Shown one piece after another: positions 36,677 to 40,600 of a stretch of 64,000 bases of DNA. The DNA is from Pseudomonadota bacterium (GTDB lineage Bacteria > Pseudomonadota > Alphaproteobacteria > Micropepsales > Micropepsaceae): NCBI GenBank assembly GCA_016201105.1, contig JACQDN010000057.1, positions 1 to 64,000 on the forward strand, read 5' to 3'. Position numbers and translations under genes: made by a program. Under the pieces are notes generated by a model that was given only the letters and a program-made list of their open reading frames with translations, ran no database searches and was not told the origin of the DNA. Each line of letters opens with the position of its first letter. The first letter of the stretch is position 1.

Positions 36677-37396
36677 ATGTCAAAATCCATGGCGATTCAC
36701 ACCATCTTCGATCTTGCAGCCTGGCTGAGCGGCGGGTTGCTCGGCTGGTGGATTGCGCGCATGGGCTGGCTCAAGGGCGCCTCATCGGCGCGCTCCTTGC
36801 GCAGCGACCCTTGGTACTTCGCGAGTCTGGGCGTCGGTGCGATCACCGGCGCGATTCTGTTCGGCAGCCTCAACATGGGCCTCGCCGGCCTTTTTCCGCT
36901 CGGCCATTCGATCGCAGGCGCCATCGCGGGCGGCATCGTCGCGGTGGAGCTCTACAAACTCGCGCGCGGCATTCGCGGCTCGACGGGGTTGCCGTTCGTG
37001 GCGCCGCTGGCGCTTGGCATCGCGGTCGGCCGCCTCGGCTGCTTCTTCGCGGGGCTCCCGGACTACACCTACGGCACGCCGAGCGCGCTGCCCTGGGCGG
37101 TGGATTTCGGCGACGGCATTCCGCGTCACCCCGTGCAGCTTTATGAATCGGCTGCGATGTTCTTGTTCCTGATCGTATTTCTGCGCGGCATCGCGAGCGG
37201 GTCGCCGCTCTTTCTTCGCCATGGATTCTACATATTCGTCGGCTTCTATGGGTTGCAGCGTTTTGTGTGGGAATTCCTCAAGCCCTATCCAACGCTCCTT
37301 GGTCCATTCAATATCTTTCATCTGATCTGCTTGGCCTTGCTGGCTTACGCCTTCTTCATGATGCGGAGAAACCATGAGCTTCGTGCGGCCGTCTAA
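36677..37396 (+). CDS. Lgt-like (prolipoprotein diacylglyceryl transferase family) membrane protein
   Basis: About 239 residues with seven membrane helices. The family signature appears as GIAVGRLGCFFAGLPDYTYG and later FGDGIPRHPVQLYES. In true Lgt the first motif reads GRxGNFxNGE, so this is a divergent paralogue class. Lgt transfers the diacylglyceryl group of phosphatidylglycerol to a cysteine of prolipoproteins. The next gene, a Tes-like radical SAM protein, overlaps this one by 23 bases, so the two are almost certainly made together and a lipid-related substrate is plausible. The ATG at 36677 is chosen over a TTG at 36671; 36689 is also possible. Confidence 0.82.
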   Translation: MSKSMAIHTIFDLAAWLSGGLLGWWIARMGWLKGASSARSLRSDPWYFASLGVGAITGAILFGSLNMGLAGLFPLGHSIAGAIAGGIVAVELYKLARGIRGSTGLPFVAPLALGIAVGRLGCFFAGLPDYTYGTPSALPWAVDFGDGIPRHPVQLYESAAMFLFLIVFLRGIASGSPLFLRHGFYIFVGFYGLQRFVWEFLKPYPTLLGPFNIFHLICLALLAYAFFMMRRNHELRAAV

Positions 37397-38783
37397 GGGC
37401 TACATCTTCTACGGACAGACGACGTCGCTGTGCGAAACCTGCATGAAGCTGGTTCCAGCCAAGATCGTGTTCGAAGACGACGATGTGTTCTTCTTGAAGC
37501 GTTGCCACGAGCACGGTGTGCAGAAAACGAAAGTCGCAAGCGACGTCGCCTATTACAAATCGCAGAAGGATTGGCTGAAGCCGGGCGATCGCCCGCTCGC
37601 CTTTCAGAGCCGCACGCATCTGGGCTGTCCTTACGATTGCGGCCTCTGTCCCGATCACGAGCAGCATTCCTGCCTCGCACTCATCGAAGTGAACGACGAA
37701 TGCAATCTCACTTGTCCGGTGTGCTTCGCCGATTCCTCGCCAAAGAAAACGCGAAGCCGCACGCTCGCCGAAATCGACGTCATGCTCGAAACCCTTGTGG
37801 AAAGCGAACGCGAACCGGATCTGGTTCAGTTCAGCGGCGGCGAACCCAGCATCCATCCCCAGATCATCGAAATCTTGAAGCTGGCAAAGACCAAGCCGAT
37901 CCGCCATATCATGCTCAACACCAACGGACTGCGCATCGCCCGCGACAAGGCCTTTGTTGCGGATCTGGCGAAGCTGACGCCCGGCTTCGAGGTCTATCTG
38001 CAGTTCGATTCCCGCCGCAAAGCCGCGCTCGAAAATCTGCGCGGCGCCGATTTGCGCCGCATTCGCGATTCCGCGCTCGCCAATCTGGAGGAAGCCGGCA
38101 TCTCCACGACGCTGGTCTGTGTGGTCAAGCGCGGCCAGAACGACGATGAGCTGGGCGAGATCGTGCGCCACGCGCTGACCTACAAATGCGTGCGCGGCGT
38201 CACCTTCCAGCCGGTGCAGGACGCAGGGCGCAACGAAAATTTCGACAAGAATCGCGACCGTTTCCTGCTCACCGATATCCGCCGCGAAATCGGTCTGAAT
38301 TCCGGCGTCTTCGACCTCGACGATGTGATCCCGCTGCCCTGCAATCCCGACGGGATCGCGATCGCTTACGGCCTGCGCGACGGCACCAACGTCACTCCGA
38401 TCACCAAACTGATCCCCAAAGAGCAATTGCTGGCAGCGGCGCCGAACACGATCTCGTTTGAAAAATATCCGGAGCTGCAGAAGCGCATCTTCAATCTGAT
38501 GTCGCTGTCGGCAACCGGCGAGGCGACCAAGACCGCGCTCGGCGATCTGCTCTGCTGTTTGCCGAAGGTCGAAGTGCCGGCCGATCTCGGCTATGACAAG
38601 ATATTCCGCATCGTCATCGTGCAGTTCATGGACCGCTACAATTTCTGTGTCGGCGCGGTGAAGCGCTCCTGCATCCACTTCGTGACACCGGATCGCAAGA
38701 TCTATCCTTTCGACACCTACAATCTCTTCTATCGCGACGGCATCAACCCGAAACTGCGGAACCCCGCTTATGTCCCAGCCTGA
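37374..38783 (+). CDS. Radical SAM protein of the tetraether-lipid-synthase (Tes, MJ0619) type
   Basis: A 469-residue protein. An N-terminal zinc-ribbon-like part has C20, C23 and C44 (CETC...RCHEHG). Next comes HLGCPYDCGLCPDHEQHSC, which holds a CxxxCxxC set (C85, C89, C92) plus C100. The radical SAM cluster motif is C110, C114, C117 (ECNLTCPVCF), followed by FSGGEPS near residue 155 and MLNTNGLRIA. A C-terminal part has further cysteines (LLCCLP, RSCIHF). The GCPYDCGLCPxH block followed closely by CNLxCPxCF is the hallmark of archaeal Tes, which joins lipid tails through carbon-carbon bonds. Bacterial homologues are little characterised. It sits between an Lgt-like gene and two small membrane proteins. 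Confidence 0.88.
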   Translation: MSFVRPSKGYIFYGQTTSLCETCMKLVPAKIVFEDDDVFFLKRCHEHGVQKTKVASDVAYYKSQKDWLKPGDRPLAFQSRTHLGCPYDCGLCPDHEQHSCLALIEVNDECNLTCPVCFADSSPKKTRSRTLAEIDVMLETLVESEREPDLVQFSGGEPSIHPQIIEILKLAKTKPIRHIMLNTNGLRIARDKAFVADLAKLTPGFEVYLQFDSRRKAALENLRGADLRRIRDSALANLEEAGISTTLVCVVKRGQNDDELGEIVRHALTYKCVRGVTFQPVQDAGRNENFDKNRDRFLLTDIRREIGLNSGVFDLDDVIPLPCNPDGIAIAYGLRDGTNVTPITKLIPKEQLLAAAPNTISFEKYPELQKRIFNLMSLSATGEATKTALGDLLCCLPKVEVPADLGYDKIFRIVIVQFMDRYNFCVGAVKRSCIHFVTPDRKIYPFDTYNLFYRDGINPKLRNPAYVPA

Positions 38784-39030
38784 AGGCCCGCTTCCTCCCG
38801 CCCGTCCGCATTGGACGGCGCTCAGCCTCGTCCTCTTCATCATCGGACTGCTCATTCTGGTGCCGTCCGGTCTTTGCACCGGCATCGGCGGCATCGTCGC
38901 ACTGTTTGGGAACGACAATGTCCAGGACGCGCTCGCCATGCTCTTGATGGTGCTGATCTACGGCGCCGTTCCCGTCGCCATCGGCGCCGTGCTTGTTTAC
39001 GCGGGGCTGAAGGCGAGAAAACGGGACTAG
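38770..39030 (+). CDS. Small two-helix membrane protein with VPSGLCTGIGG motif (copy 1)
   Basis: An 86-residue protein with helices at about 20-45 and 60-80. The segment LVLFIIGLLILVPSGLCTG is shared with the next gene. The ATG overlaps the end of the radical SAM gene by 14 bases. No known function was recognised, but the tight coupling suggests that it works with the radical SAM and Lgt-like proteins. Confidence 0.8.
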   Translation: MSQPEGPLPPARPHWTALSLVLFIIGLLILVPSGLCTGIGGIVALFGNDNVQDALAMLLMVLIYGAVPVAIGAVLVYAGLKARKRD

Positions 39031-39033
39031 GTC

Positions 39034-39291
39034 GTGGAACGTCCGTATCGGGCAAAGCCACGACCGCAGTGGGCACCTCTTGGCTTGGCCTTTATGATCA
39101 TCGGGCTCATGATATTTGTCCCATCGGGACTCTGCACGGGTATTGGCGGGGCAGCTCTACTCTACGAAGCTGTTAGCGGTGAAATTTCCGTCGGCAACCC
39201 ATTGTCGCTGCTTTGGTTGCTTTTGGTTCCAGGACTGGCGGGTATTGGATATGGCGTTTACCGCTTCGGCGTTTATCTGAGCGCGCGCTAA
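39034..39291 (+). CDS. Small two-helix membrane protein with VPSGLCTGIGG motif (copy 2)
   Basis: An 85-residue protein starting with GTG only three bases after the previous stop. The segment LAFMIIGLMIFVPSGLCTG closely matches copy 1, while the second helix (LLWLLLVPGLAGIGYGVYRF) has diverged. The pair probably arose by tandem duplication. The conserved cysteine in both copies is a candidate functional residue. No family name was recognised. Confidence 0.72.
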   Translation: MERPYRAKPRPQWAPLGLAFMIIGLMIFVPSGLCTGIGGAALLYEAVSGEISVGNPLSLLWLLLVPGLAGIGYGVYRFGVYLSAR

Positions 39292-39391
39292 TTCTCGTAG
39301 CGACAAGCTAGAAACAAAACGTACGTACCCCCCAAGCGATTGCGGCATGAACGGCACCGGGCCACTATGGCCCCCGGTTCGGGGAACTTGC

Positions 39392-40600
39392 ATGAAGATC
39401 GATCTCTATTCGCCGCAAAGCTACGCAAGCGGTCATCCCTTCGCGCAGTACAAATGGCTGCGCGAGAACGCGCCGGTGTTCTGGCAGGAAGAGCCGAACG
39501 GCAAGGGTTATTGGGCCGTCACGCGCTACAAGGATGTGTGGGACGTCGACCGCGGCTTTCAGGCCTATTCCTCCGAACCCACCATCATGATCCAGGACCC
39601 GGCGGCGAACGAGGCGCTCGGCTTCGGCGGCTACAAGATGATGCTGATGATGGATCCGCCGCAGCACACCGCCTACCGCAAGCTGATCCGCAGCGAATTC
39701 ACCCAGCCCTTGGCCGCCGGGCGCACGCCGCGGATGAATGTATTGGCGCGCCAGATTGTCGACGAAGTGATCGAAAGGGGCGAATGCGATTTCGTCAGCC
39801 AAATCGCCGGTGAAATGCCGTCCTATGTCATTGCCGAACTGCTCGGCATTCCGCTCGATGACGGACGCGAACTCTACAAACTCACCGAGATCATCCACAC
39901 CGCGCCGGAAGTGCAGGTCGCCAATGCCGGCGGCATGGCGGTGTTGAAAATGTTCGAATATGGCCGCGGCGTGATCGAGGAAAAGCGCGCCCGTCCCAAG
40001 GACGATCTCGCCACCAAGCTTCTGCAAGCCGAAGTCGACGGCAAGCGGCTGGACGACATCGAATTCCTTCTATTCTTTCTGCTGCTTATCGATGCGGGCG
40101 GCGATACCACGCGCAATCTGTTGTCGTCGGGATTGGTGGCGTTGTTGGGCAATCGCGATCAGCTGGCCTGGCTGAAGGCCGATATCGCGCACCGTTTGCC
40201 GTCCGCGCGCGAAGAGCTGCTGCGCTTCACGACGCCCGTCGTCTATATGCGCCGGACCGCGAAGCGCGACACGGTGCTTGCGGGCGAAGAGATCAAGGAA
40301 GGCGACAAGGTCGTGATGTATTTCGGCTCGGCCAATCGCGATCCGGAAAAGTTTGATCGTCCCGATCAACTCGACCTTTCACGCGCGCCCAATGAGCACA
40401 TCGCGTTCGGAACGGGGCCGCACGGCTGCCTCGGCCAGCACATCGCGCGCATCGAGATCGATGCCATTCTGCAGGAAGTGCTCATGCGCCTGCACGGATT
40501 GGAAATCGTCGGCGCGCCGGAATGGCTGGCCTCGAATTTCATCTCAGGGCCGAAGCAGATGAACGTTCGTTTCACGCCGGGAAGGCGTTCAGCAGCGTAG
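39392..40600 (+). CDS. Cytochrome P450
   Basis: A bacterial soluble P450 of about 402 residues. The I-helix oxygen-activation motif is DAGGDTTRN near residue 235, the K-helix ExxR is ELLRF, and the heme-binding loop is FGTGPHGCLG with C346 as the thiolate ligand. It needs ferredoxin and a reductase, which are not encoded nearby. A 100-base gap separates it from the Tes-like operon, so shared function is possible but unproven. The ATG at 39392 (MKIDLYSP) is preferred to the open frame from 39347. Confidence 0.94.
   Translation: MKIDLYSPQSYASGHPFAQYKWLRENAPVFWQEEPNGKGYWAVTRYKDVWDVDRGFQAYSSEPTIMIQDPAANEALGFGGYKMMLMMDPPQHTAYRKLIRSEFTQPLAAGRTPRMNVLARQIVDEVIERGECDFVSQIAGEMPSYVIAELLGIPLDDGRELYKLTEIIHTAPEVQVANAGGMAVLKMFEYGRGVIEEKRARPKDDLATKLLQAEVDGKRLDDIEFLLFFLLLIDAGGDTTRNLLSSGLVALLGNRDQLAWLKADIAHRLPSAREELLRFTTPVVYMRRTAKRDTVLAGEEIKEGDKVVMYFGSANRDPEKFDRPDQLDLSRAPNEHIAFGTGPHGCLGQHIARIEIDAILQEVLMRLHGLEIVGAPEWLASNFISGPKQMNVRFTPGRRSAA

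Follow-up and report, generated by a model that had tools for sequence, protein, structure and literature searches.

A widespread bacterial gene cassette of an Lgt-like protein, a Tes-like radical SAM enzyme and small cysteine-bearing membrane proteins suggests a route of membrane-protein modification

In bacteria of several phyla, a compact cassette encodes a divergent Lgt-family protein together with a Tes-like radical SAM enzyme and small membrane proteins that share a conserved cysteine; the arrangement suggests that membrane proteins are modified in a manner yet to be described. In the window (the whole 64,000-nucleotide stretch of DNA analyzed here), the cassette spans positions 36677-39291 of the + strand, and all four of its genes are present as open reading frames that overlap or abut (Table 1): the Lgt-like and radical SAM genes overlap by 23 nt, the radical SAM gene and that of small membrane protein 1 overlap by 14 nt, and 3 nt separate the two small-protein genes. 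The open reading frames and Pfam together bear out the original prediction: four genes that overlap or nearly touch, of which one is for a divergent Lgt-family protein, one for a radical SAM protein and two for small membrane proteins. We give about an even chance to the reading that these genes form a three-part membrane-protein modification cassette, in which the small cysteine proteins would be clients of the Lgt-like and Tes-like enzymes. An Rfam scan of the window returned one tRNA and nothing else. Two neighbors were rejected as cassette parts: a downstream P450 gene (39347-40600), which besides the window is found only at L004 among L003-L010 (flanks of about 1.5 kb), and an upstream TonB receptor gene, which among L003-L010 is present only in the window's own loci.

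Table 1. Genes of the cassette in the window.
Feature	Position	Strand	Basis
Lgt-like integral membrane enzyme, 239 aa, divergent PF01790 family	36677..37396	+	Pfam, fold, kept residues
Tes-like radical SAM enzyme, 469 aa	37374..38783	+	Pfam, NCBIfam, closest solved structure, AF model
Small membrane protein 1, 86 aa, two likely transmembrane helices, C36 in VPSGLCTGIGG; proposed client	38770..39030	+	
Small membrane protein 2, 85 aa, GTG start, same VPSGLCTGIGG motif; proposed client	39034..39291	+	

The pairing of the two enzyme genes is not unique to the window's genome. Among the matches listed, the Lgt-like gene lies on the same strand as a radical SAM relative in 97 of 102 loci. In 398 genomes of the window's phylum (taken to be Pseudomonadota, as the nearest named records are), the radical SAM gene, scored at an E limit of 1e-40, and the Lgt-like subfamily are confined to one and the same set of 12 genomes; the Lgt-like scores there are 232-311 bits, and the next best score is 97. 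Chance adjacency was rejected on these counts. The two 398-genome searches were taken as the same draw, and their listed handles agree. Five of the 12 Lgt-like sequences were themselves rows of the profile, so that the informative part of this result is the absence of the subfamily from the other genomes. Four of the five listed loci lacking the Lgt-like gene end at a contig edge, and L010, counted as lacking it, had about 1.5 kb covered upstream. The 102 loci are not all independent, since L019/L050 and L020/L055 share small-protein sequences through repeated genomes, and 80 of them are the best 80 of 578 matching stretches, many from Bradyrhizobium, so that close relatives are over-represented. 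The distances of the two enzymes follow each other closely over 92 listed loci (r 0.92; highest of 1000 permutations 0.12). The three parts also stay together when gene order changes: the order is radical SAM, small, small, Lgt at L013 and L014, and Lgt, small, small, radical SAM in Mycobacterium branderi, where GLCTG and GVCTG stand near the C-termini of the small proteins. The commonest neighbor clusters after the two enzymes, c2 (30 loci; begins like a GTPase), c4 (21), c5 (20) and c6 (17) among the matches listed, are each limited to part of the loci and were rejected as cassette parts.

On its sequence, and by curated cut-offs, the Lgt-like protein is a divergent member of the Lgt family and not a standard Lgt. 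It matches Pfam PF01790 at superfamily level (E 1.8e-19, 70.5 bits, cut-off 24.9) and reaches neither NCBIfam equivalog, scoring 40.0 bits against NF000778, the best Lgt model (cut-off 334), and 26.5 against TIGR00544 (cut-off 118.9). A PDB search with one Lgt-like sequence gave no Lgt match, and the search with a profile matched Lgt. The AF model (pLDDT 93.6) superposes on E. coli Lgt (5azb) with Z 13.0 and rmsd 4.4 over 215 residues; R119, Y191, R195 and E199 are kept at the positions of R143, Y235, R239 and E243, and K202 at that of R246 is a conservative change. Residues were counted over 92 of the 102 loci; of the ten left out, four were partial and six had no refined Lgt reference. Among these listed matches the catalytic Arg143/Arg239 pair is retained, with Arg at the R119 position in 90/92 (Lys in L013 and L014) and at R195 in 92/92, while Arg246 is replaced by Lys in 90/92 and the signature Asn146 by Cys in 92/92. 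The His103 column holds Val (30), Glu (25), Ala (18), Met (14), Leu (3) and Ile (2), and His in none of the 92 listed sequences. Given that His103 of the HGGL motif is reported as essential in E. coli Lgt (PMC4728403), transferase activity itself may be lost. A second, canonical Lgt (228 bits) is encoded on another contig of this genome (G000:C66), and the Lgt-like gene was accordingly rejected as the housekeeping copy.

The closest characterized relative of the radical SAM protein is a lipid enzyme, as foreseen, namely GDGT-MAS/Tes (7tol, E 5.7e-62). Pfam assigns PF04055 (E 4.3e-20) and a PF23545 zinc ribbon (E 1.7e-17), and the AF model (pLDDT 84.2) aligns with GDGT-MAS 7tom at Z 48.7 and rmsd 2.5 over 409 residues, followed by MoaA (Z 20.5), SuiB (Z 20.4) and SkfB (Z 19.5). 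The predicted motif pair, GCPYDCGLCPDH and CNLTCPVCF, is present. The protein has the Tes/GDGT-MAS architecture: a zinc ribbon/rubredoxin-type site (C20, C23, C44, H47), an N-terminal auxiliary cluster (C85, C89, C92 and probably H95, the His ligand being read from an alignment), the CX3CX2C radical SAM cluster (C110, C114, C117) and a C-terminal domain with C323, C394, C395 and C433. The ligands of the first three sites are invariant in 92/92 listed loci. The likeness to Tes stands in architecture and fold overlay, and gives way in other respects. First, the protein is neither Tes nor TrsS by curated cut-offs, scoring 273.7 bits against NF045702 (Tes; cut-off 450) and 294.6, its best NCBIfam score, against NF045646 (TrsS; cut-off 490); the NF045702 cut-off was passed by three archaeal control genomes and 2 of 246 planctomycete-phylum genomes. 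Second, Met439 and Tyr459, which are reported as fully conserved among 1,000 archaeal Tes homologues (PMC9433317), are V416 and F436 here; among the matches listed, the first position is Met in 26/92 loci and otherwise V, L, S, I, K or T, and the second is F, I or V in 92/92, never Tyr. As the Y459F and M439A variants of Tes are reported to stay active (PMC9433317), these absences argue against Tes membership and not against activity. Third, the C-terminal cluster ligands look changed, two M. jannaschii Cys positions being Ser in 89/92 and Asp/Glu in 90/92 loci, and a Cys-Cys pair, new relative to the M. jannaschii protein, being found in 90/92 (all among the matches listed).

Membership in the wider family does not by itself imply lipid chemistry, because a sister type pairs the radical SAM relative with a methyltransferase and not with an Lgt-like gene. 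TrsS genes as a rule adjoin a DVU_1556-family methyltransferase gene. TrsS-like relatives in Mycolicibacterium vanbaalenii and Haloarcula, which score under the NF045646 cut-off, overlap or abut such a DVU_1556-like gene; the methyltransferase is present at L216 and L217. Quick trees place L181, L182, L211 and L217 on the same side as the main clade, and L202 inside it, all without an Lgt-like gene. The second tree was built from 24 main rows out of the 36 in the first, with eight planctomycete-phylum rows left out for long branches or contig edges, and has the methyltransferase-linked L217 on the Lgt side. With quick trees and SH-aLRT values of 94 and 91, the key split is not firm. In the planctomycete-phylum sample, 24 of 40 regions around Tes-family matches carry an Lgt-family gene; seven of these score 99-122 bits, three 165-180 and the other 14 224-252, and the weak matches may represent a different Lgt subfamily.

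The two small membrane proteins of the window are 41% identical. Pfam gave a best E of 0.054 for protein 1, under the cut-off, and no match for protein 2, and none of ten representative small proteins exceeded a gathering cut-off. Genes were called with our own codon-score script, without a trained gene finder, which cut some small-protein N-termini and missed other small proteins; transmembrane segments and orientation were assigned by simple hydropathy and charge rules, with control proteins from the same flanks. Among the matches listed, 100 loci were testable, having at least 350 bp downstream, and 96 of them have a small cysteine transmembrane protein; the automatic rule found 82 and inspection by eye the other 14, some of the latter in overlong frames (for example, L022, L025 and L089); none was found at L024, L045, L084 and L088. 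At L032 the small protein lies directly upstream of the Lgt-like gene and not downstream of the radical SAM gene. Among these listed matches, cysteine falls within a transmembrane segment in 111/115 cassette proteins vs. 29/80 controls and in a [GAS]xC context in 99/115 vs. 16/80. The choice of motif cysteine for the orientation count favors Gly, Ala or Ser two residues before; proteins with just one cysteine within a transmembrane segment needed no choice, and in these Gly stands at that position in 46/58 vs. 10/20 controls among the matches listed.

By the charge rule, and with N-termini extended, the cysteine-bearing helix runs in-to-out in 93 of the 115 listed proteins and the opposite way in 12, with eight ties and two lacking a usable Cys; counted per sequence cluster the figures are 29 vs. 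10 with seven ties, and the first count, made on the truncated N-termini, gave 66 vs. 27 with 15 ties of 108. The cysteine stands a median of 20 residues from the inner charge (IQR 17-21, matches listed). On sequence grounds, then, the small proteins have lipobox geometry without a lipobox: one cysteine stands at the outer end of a helix running in-to-out, most often preceded by Gly-x (SGLCTG in the window). The strict pattern [LVI][ASTVI][GAS]C occurs in 5/115 of the listed proteins, and the window motif SGLC does not fit it. This scarcity and the opposite orientation of 12 of 113 listed helices are points against the explanation that we favor.

Sequence turnover in the small proteins is high. 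Between the window and L004, identity is 81% for the radical SAM protein, 76% for the Lgt-like protein and 43% for the small protein, and G26, G34, C36 and G72 are the only invariant positions in 16 small-protein sequences. The automatic caller found one to three small proteins per locus, with two or three copies in 28 of 83 listed loci. Fast divergence, few invariant residues and multiple copies are as expected of substrates. From the comparative record, that is, the three genes, their conservation and co-occurrence, the predicted folds, the residues retained, the site of the cysteine and the direction predicted for its helix, we infer that the small proteins are probably the substrates and that their cysteine is probably lipidated, and we likewise assign a probable step order and radical SAM role. 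As clients, the small proteins would each present a single Cys at the point where an in-to-out helix ends on the outer side. The Lgt-like enzyme, facing the outer side, would most likely use a phospholipid as donor and load this Cys with a diacylglyceryl group or a related glyceryl lipid. On the cytosolic side, the Tes-like enzyme would most likely act on lipid tails, whether those of the donor phospholipid ahead of transfer or those of the lipid once attached. A kept donor-binding core (the R143, Y235, R239 and E243 equivalents) with loss of the acceptor-side His103 fits a non-lipobox client. With the Lgt-like protein on the outer face and a soluble radical SAM enzyme that should be cytosolic, the two have no obvious action on the same atom. 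The original prediction of a pathway acting on lipid tails holds in its option of a lipoprotein-like substrate and falls short in treating the small proteins as extras, for they are the most informative part: as they look like cysteine-bearing clients, the likely product becomes a small membrane protein bearing a modification, in place of a free lipid.

The small proteins could instead be structural subunits or adaptors that join the enzymes at the membrane, with the cysteine serving packing, metal binding or redox, while the enzyme pair acts on free phospholipids to yield, for example, a modified phosphatidylglycerol or an unusual glycerolipid. Tes is reported to bind free phospholipids (PMC9433317), and the Lgt-like protein keeps phospholipid-binding residues without the acceptor-side His103. 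In 61 related genomes, a small-protein profile matched in seven cassette genomes, always at the cassette, and in none of the other 54 (six of the seven had contributed rows), so that the window-type protein was found nowhere in this set but beside the enzymes. An invariant Cys would also be compatible with small conserved subunits of an enzyme complex. We nevertheless regard this alternative as unlikely, because loci have between one and three divergent small proteins, and these change much more quickly than the enzymes do and differ among phyla in length and in the place of the Cys helix while keeping the Cys.

Slightly less probable again is that the small protein is itself the target of the radical SAM enzyme, through thioether formation or C-methylation involving the Cys, for example, with the Lgt-like protein binding, flipping or capping the peptide. 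SuiB and SkfB are among the next structural neighbors after Tes and MoaA, and a radical SAM gene accompanied by several short, variable proteins has a precursor-like layout. However, among the 25 NCBIfam models listed no peptide-maturase model came near its cut-off, TrsS and Tes being best; the neighbor clusters, part of which are annotated, contain no protease or exporter common to the loci; and the Cys, predicted to face outward, would lie on the opposite side from a cytosolic enzyme. Many genera with radical SAM relatives are aerobic soil, plant or marine bacteria, which speaks against a bacterial tetraether/membrane-spanning lipid synthase with incidental neighbors, as do the conservation of those neighbors across phyla and the NF045702 score of 273.7 bits vs. 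450. Despite the fold match to GDGT-MAS and the proposal of bacterial Tes homologues as brGDGT enzymes (PMC8941075; PMC10087280), we hold that last reading to be very improbable.

A bolder form of the client reading, which we regard as possible though doubtful, is that the Lgt-like protein lipidates an internal non-lipobox Cys of the small proteins at the outer face and the Tes-like enzyme couples or macrocyclizes the acyl tails, yielding an uncleaved proteolipid whose radical-modified anchor may span the membrane, and that much of the catalogued bacterial Tes belongs here. Search listings over open-licence PMC papers gave no account linking Lgt-like and Tes-like genes in such a cassette, in keeping with the prediction that the pathway is undescribed. 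Bacterial Tes homologues have been candidate makers of brGDGTs, lipids that serve as a palaeoclimate proxy, since 2022, with their role in bacteria reported as still unconfirmed in 2025 (PMC8941075, PMC11868695). Many of these published homologues may belong to the cassette and not to tetraether lipid synthesis. If the Lgt-linked clade acts otherwise, surveys in which these genes are tallied as capacity for membrane-spanning lipids would need correcting, given the 24 of 40 planctomycete-phylum regions above. For a possible new lipid modification, the operons are compact and testable, combining two enzymes with one or two tiny candidate clients, and occur in the culturable, mutable genera Bradyrhizobium, Paenibacillus and Flavobacterium.

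Among known systems, Lgt (5azb; TIGR00544) shares with the Lgt-like protein its fold (Z 13.0, 215 residues) and the Arg143, Tyr235, Arg239 and Glu243 equivalents, whereas the window protein lies under the equivalog cut-offs, has changed His103, Arg246 and Asn146 equivalents and coexists with a separate canonical Lgt. GDGT-MAS/Tes (7tol, 7tom; NF045702) shares the 409-residue alignment at Z 48.7 and the first three ligand sites, but the window protein is under the cut-off and differs at Met439, Tyr459 and the C-terminal Cys positions; the Tes genes over the cut-off in this analysis had no linkage to Lgt-like or small Cys proteins, and the window-type family has both. The TrsS radical SAM (seleno)protein (NF045646) gave the best NCBIfam score, yet under its cut-off, and the window has an Lgt-like gene upstream and small proteins and a P450 downstream, without an adjacent DVU_1556-family methyltransferase. 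The bacterial membrane-spanning lipid synthase Mss, likened here by description only, is reported to have a catalytic architecture in common with Tes (PMC13274423). Finally, MYXO-CTERM/myxosortase sorting also involves an invariant Cys beside a transmembrane helix, and Lgt-like lipid transfer has been proposed there (PMC11980579), whereas the cassette described here, in which no CPBP protease was noticed, has small stand-alone proteins, an in-to-out helix before the Cys and a radical SAM partner.

The cassette is a run of four overlapping or nearly abutting genes, and each of its two enzymes is a diverged member of a known family. The radical SAM protein scored 294.6 bits against the NCBI curated model for TrsS (cut-off 490) and 273.7 bits against that for Tes, the archaeal tetraether lipid synthase GDGT-MAS (cut-off 450); because both scores fall below the cut-offs, it is neither TrsS nor Tes by the NCBI standard. 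Its predicted structure (46 sequences; pLDDT 84.2, below 50 at residues 356-364 and 373-394) aligned with GDGT-MAS (7tom) at Z 48.7 and rmsd 2.5 over 409 residues; second among families was MoaA at Z 20.5. The model of the Lgt-like protein (38 sequences; pLDDT 93.6) aligned with E. coli Lgt (5azb) at Z 13.0 and rmsd 4.4 over 215 residues, with the following row at Z 6.6. The two small proteins are 41% identical to each other. Neither flanking gene was accepted as a member of the unit: in flanks of about 1.5 kb at loci L003-L010, the upstream TonB receptor was common to no other genome and the downstream P450 to L004 only. The P450 gene lies directly 3' of the cassette, and its product is 79% identical to that of L004 over 403 residues.

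Coordinates of the cassette genes and of features at related loci (L, loci around radical SAM relatives)
Feature	Location	Strand	Remarks
Lgt-family protein, 239 residues	first of four genes, 36677-39291	+	PF01790, E 1.8e-19
Radical SAM protein, 469 residues	second of four genes, 36677-39291	+	top named families TrsS, Tes
Small protein, 86 residues	third of four genes, 36677-39291	+	no Pfam family; VPSGLCTGIGG
Small protein, 85 residues	fourth of four genes, 36677-39291	+	no Pfam family; VPSGLCTGIGG
Cytochrome P450	window 39347-40600	+	
Reordered distant cassette	L013:235-2796		small (1.2-1.5 Mb) genome, window's class
Reordered distant cassette	L014:1492-4174		small (1.2-1.5 Mb) genome, window's class
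Radical SAM relative with TAG	L016 (G426:C19:359616-360998)		
Transposase and TnpB genes	L220:4623-6268		Mycobacterium branderi plasmid
Pro/Gln-rich protein	L219:2018-3124		Nonomuraea
TrsS-like radical SAM beside DVU_1556-like methyltransferase	L216:4974-7177		haloarchaeal plasmid
TrsS-like radical SAM beside DVU_1556-like methyltransferase	L217:3971-6339		Mycolicibacterium plasmid

The cassette is conserved. In two sets of close relatives the Lgt-like gene lay near the radical SAM gene in 7/8 and 14/14 loci, the eighth locus of the first set, L010, being a distant relative (32% identity) at the end of its own contig. A scan of named genomes contributed 80 further loci, the best 80 of 578 matching stretches, whose titles place them in Alpha- and Gammaproteobacteria, Bacillota, Bacteroidota and Cyanobacteria/Melainabacteria, together with a Methylacidiphilales MAG and a single planctomycete MAG. 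Among the 102 loci that include these best 80 of 578, 97 carry a Lgt-like gene on the same strand; the other five are L010 and four (L044, L060, L078 and L093) with a contig edge about 150 bases or less upstream of the radical SAM gene. Where starts were refined (96 loci from the set including the best 80 of 578), the Lgt-like gene is upstream in 94, the genes overlap in 67 and they lie no more than 20 nt apart in 77. The evolutionary distances of the two proteins correlated at r 0.92 across 92 loci from that set, best 80 of 578 included, against a permutation maximum of 0.12. In 398 genomes of the window's phylum, the Lgt-like and radical SAM searches hit the identical 12 genomes, and scores dropped from 232 bits for the Lgt-like subfamily to 97 for the next best matches, 5 of the 12 having supplied rows to the Lgt profile. 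Within the window's genus the cassette is sporadic (6/37 genomes, the window's own counted). One radical SAM relative, L016, contains a single in-frame TAG, from either gene decay or an error in sequencing. On the M. branderi plasmid, IS200/IS605 transposase and TnpB genes lie directly 3' of the cassette, hinting at its mobility.

Counts of loci and small proteins in this paragraph are from the set that includes the best 80 of 578 matching stretches. One to three small TM-Cys proteins were present in or beside the gene run in 96 of the 100 loci with enough sequence (82 called by automatic rule, 14 by eye), and those called automatically fell into 47 similarity clusters, with differing lengths and key-helix positions. 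The position and orientation of the Cys are supported by simple rules. A Cys lies inside a TM helix or at its end in 111/115 small proteins, compared with 29/80 controls, which were other small TM proteins from the identical flanks. The residue two before the motif Cys is Gly in 79/113 and Ala or Ser in 21/113, under a picking rule that favours these three residues; among proteins with a single in-TM Cys, Gly occupies this position in 46/58, compared with 10/20 controls. The residue directly before is mostly Leu, Ile or Ala. The Cys helix runs in-to-out in 93 of 115 proteins (opposite 12, tie 8, no usable Cys 2) and in 29 of 46 clusters (opposite 10, tie 7). The median distance from the Cys to the inner-side charge is 20 residues, much like the spacing in a lipoprotein signal, but just 5/115 carry a strict lipobox.

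Among 61 related genomes, a profile of the window-type small protein had matches in 7; these are precisely the genomes with a complete cassette, every match lies at the cassette, and none was obtained in G019, a genome with a distant radical SAM gene. Because 6 of the 7 genomes had supplied profile rows and these proteins diverge fast, absence elsewhere holds for the window type only.

Distant cassettes retain all three parts in other orders: radical SAM-small-small-Lgt in L013/L014 (28-29% identity) and Lgt-small-small-radical SAM in M. branderi. Close to the C-terminus, the two hypothetical proteins of M. branderi have the sequences GGLCTGLNP and VGVCTGLNP. In Nonomuraea, a 368-residue Pro/Gln-rich protein, whose frame runs into the Lgt-like frame, ends in a TM segment with GICTGIN (AGICTGINPSLYG) and is possibly a large client. 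In the planctomycete-phylum regions L185, L186, L187 and L190, candidate small membrane proteins are fusions in which N-terminal CxxC pairs, resembling those of a zinc ribbon, precede a TM region bearing a C-terminal Cys.

Catalytic residues were counted in 92 loci from the set including the best 80 of 578. In the Lgt-like protein, the equivalents of E202, Y235 and R239 are invariant (92/92), that of R143 is Arg in 90, that of E243 is Glu in 81 and Asp in 11, and that of R246 is Lys in 90. Position 103 holds V, E, A, M, L or I in 92/92; His103 of E. coli Lgt is reported to be essential (PMC4728403). From the residues kept and lost, the phospholipid side therefore appears preserved and the acceptor side changed. 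In the radical SAM protein, ligands of three of the four GDGT-MAS metal sites are invariant (92/92). Where M. jannaschii has Cys at two positions of the C-terminal domain, these proteins have Ser (89/92) and Asp/Glu (90/92), and C323 and C433 (92/92) and C394 and C395 (90/92) are present, which suggests that other Cys residues may bind the last cluster. In L013 and L014, both M. jannaschii positions are Cys and the Cys-Cys pair is missing; their Lgt-like proteins are more diverged, with Lys at the R143 position.

In the mechanism that we propose, the small proteins would serve as clients, with the Lgt-like enzyme attaching a lipid to their Cys at the outer face; we consider this reading about evenly balanced. 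The Tes-like enzyme would act on lipid tails, and the exact radical step is put forward less confidently. It would act more easily before transfer, when the tails are still those of the donor phospholipid at the inner face, than once the protein is complete. Tail chemistry of this kind is plausible for a bacterial lipid, since PMC9433317 describes binding of bacterial phospholipids by GDGT-MAS and detection of a sulfur-bearing lipid intermediate.

How the family relates to Tes is indicated by the phylum of the planctomycete MAG, where 45 of a sample of 246 genomes had a Tes-family match, two above the cut-off. A Lgt-family gene occurred in 24 of 40 fetched Tes-family regions (14 matches at 224-252 bits, 3 at 165-180 and 7 at 99-122) and was not found in the two true Tes regions among the 40. 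In a tree of 76 sequences, 0/9 on the true-Tes side were Lgt-linked (SH-aLRT of the split 94), versus 59/67 on the other side (4 without, 4 undecided at contig edges); in a second tree of 60 sequences, the counts were 0/8 (SH-aLRT 91) and 45/52 (4 without, 3 not labelled, 2 of which were later found to have a Lgt-like gene). At L181 and L182, two tandem radical SAM genes of the superfamily form their own long branch in the first tree, and the fetched stretch had no Lgt-like gene.

Unlike the window's gene, the TrsS-like genes of Mycolicibacterium vanbaalenii and Haloarcula overlap or abut a DVU_1556-like methyltransferase gene, and this pair is a sister cassette. Both form long branches in the second tree, the former on the Lgt side and the latter on the Tes side. 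Haloarchaea are reported to make archaeol only (PMC8941075), yet the sister cassette occurs in Haloarcula. One radical SAM fold thus occurs with three or more sets of partners, and lipid chemistry is not to be presumed. Bacterial Tes homologues appear in the literature as candidates for brGDGT synthesis (PMC8941075; PMC10087280; PMC11868695), and we found no paper in the open-licence PMC literature tying either a Lgt-like gene or Cys-bearing small membrane proteins to them. Neither this combination nor the small-protein families had a precedent in the libraries searched.
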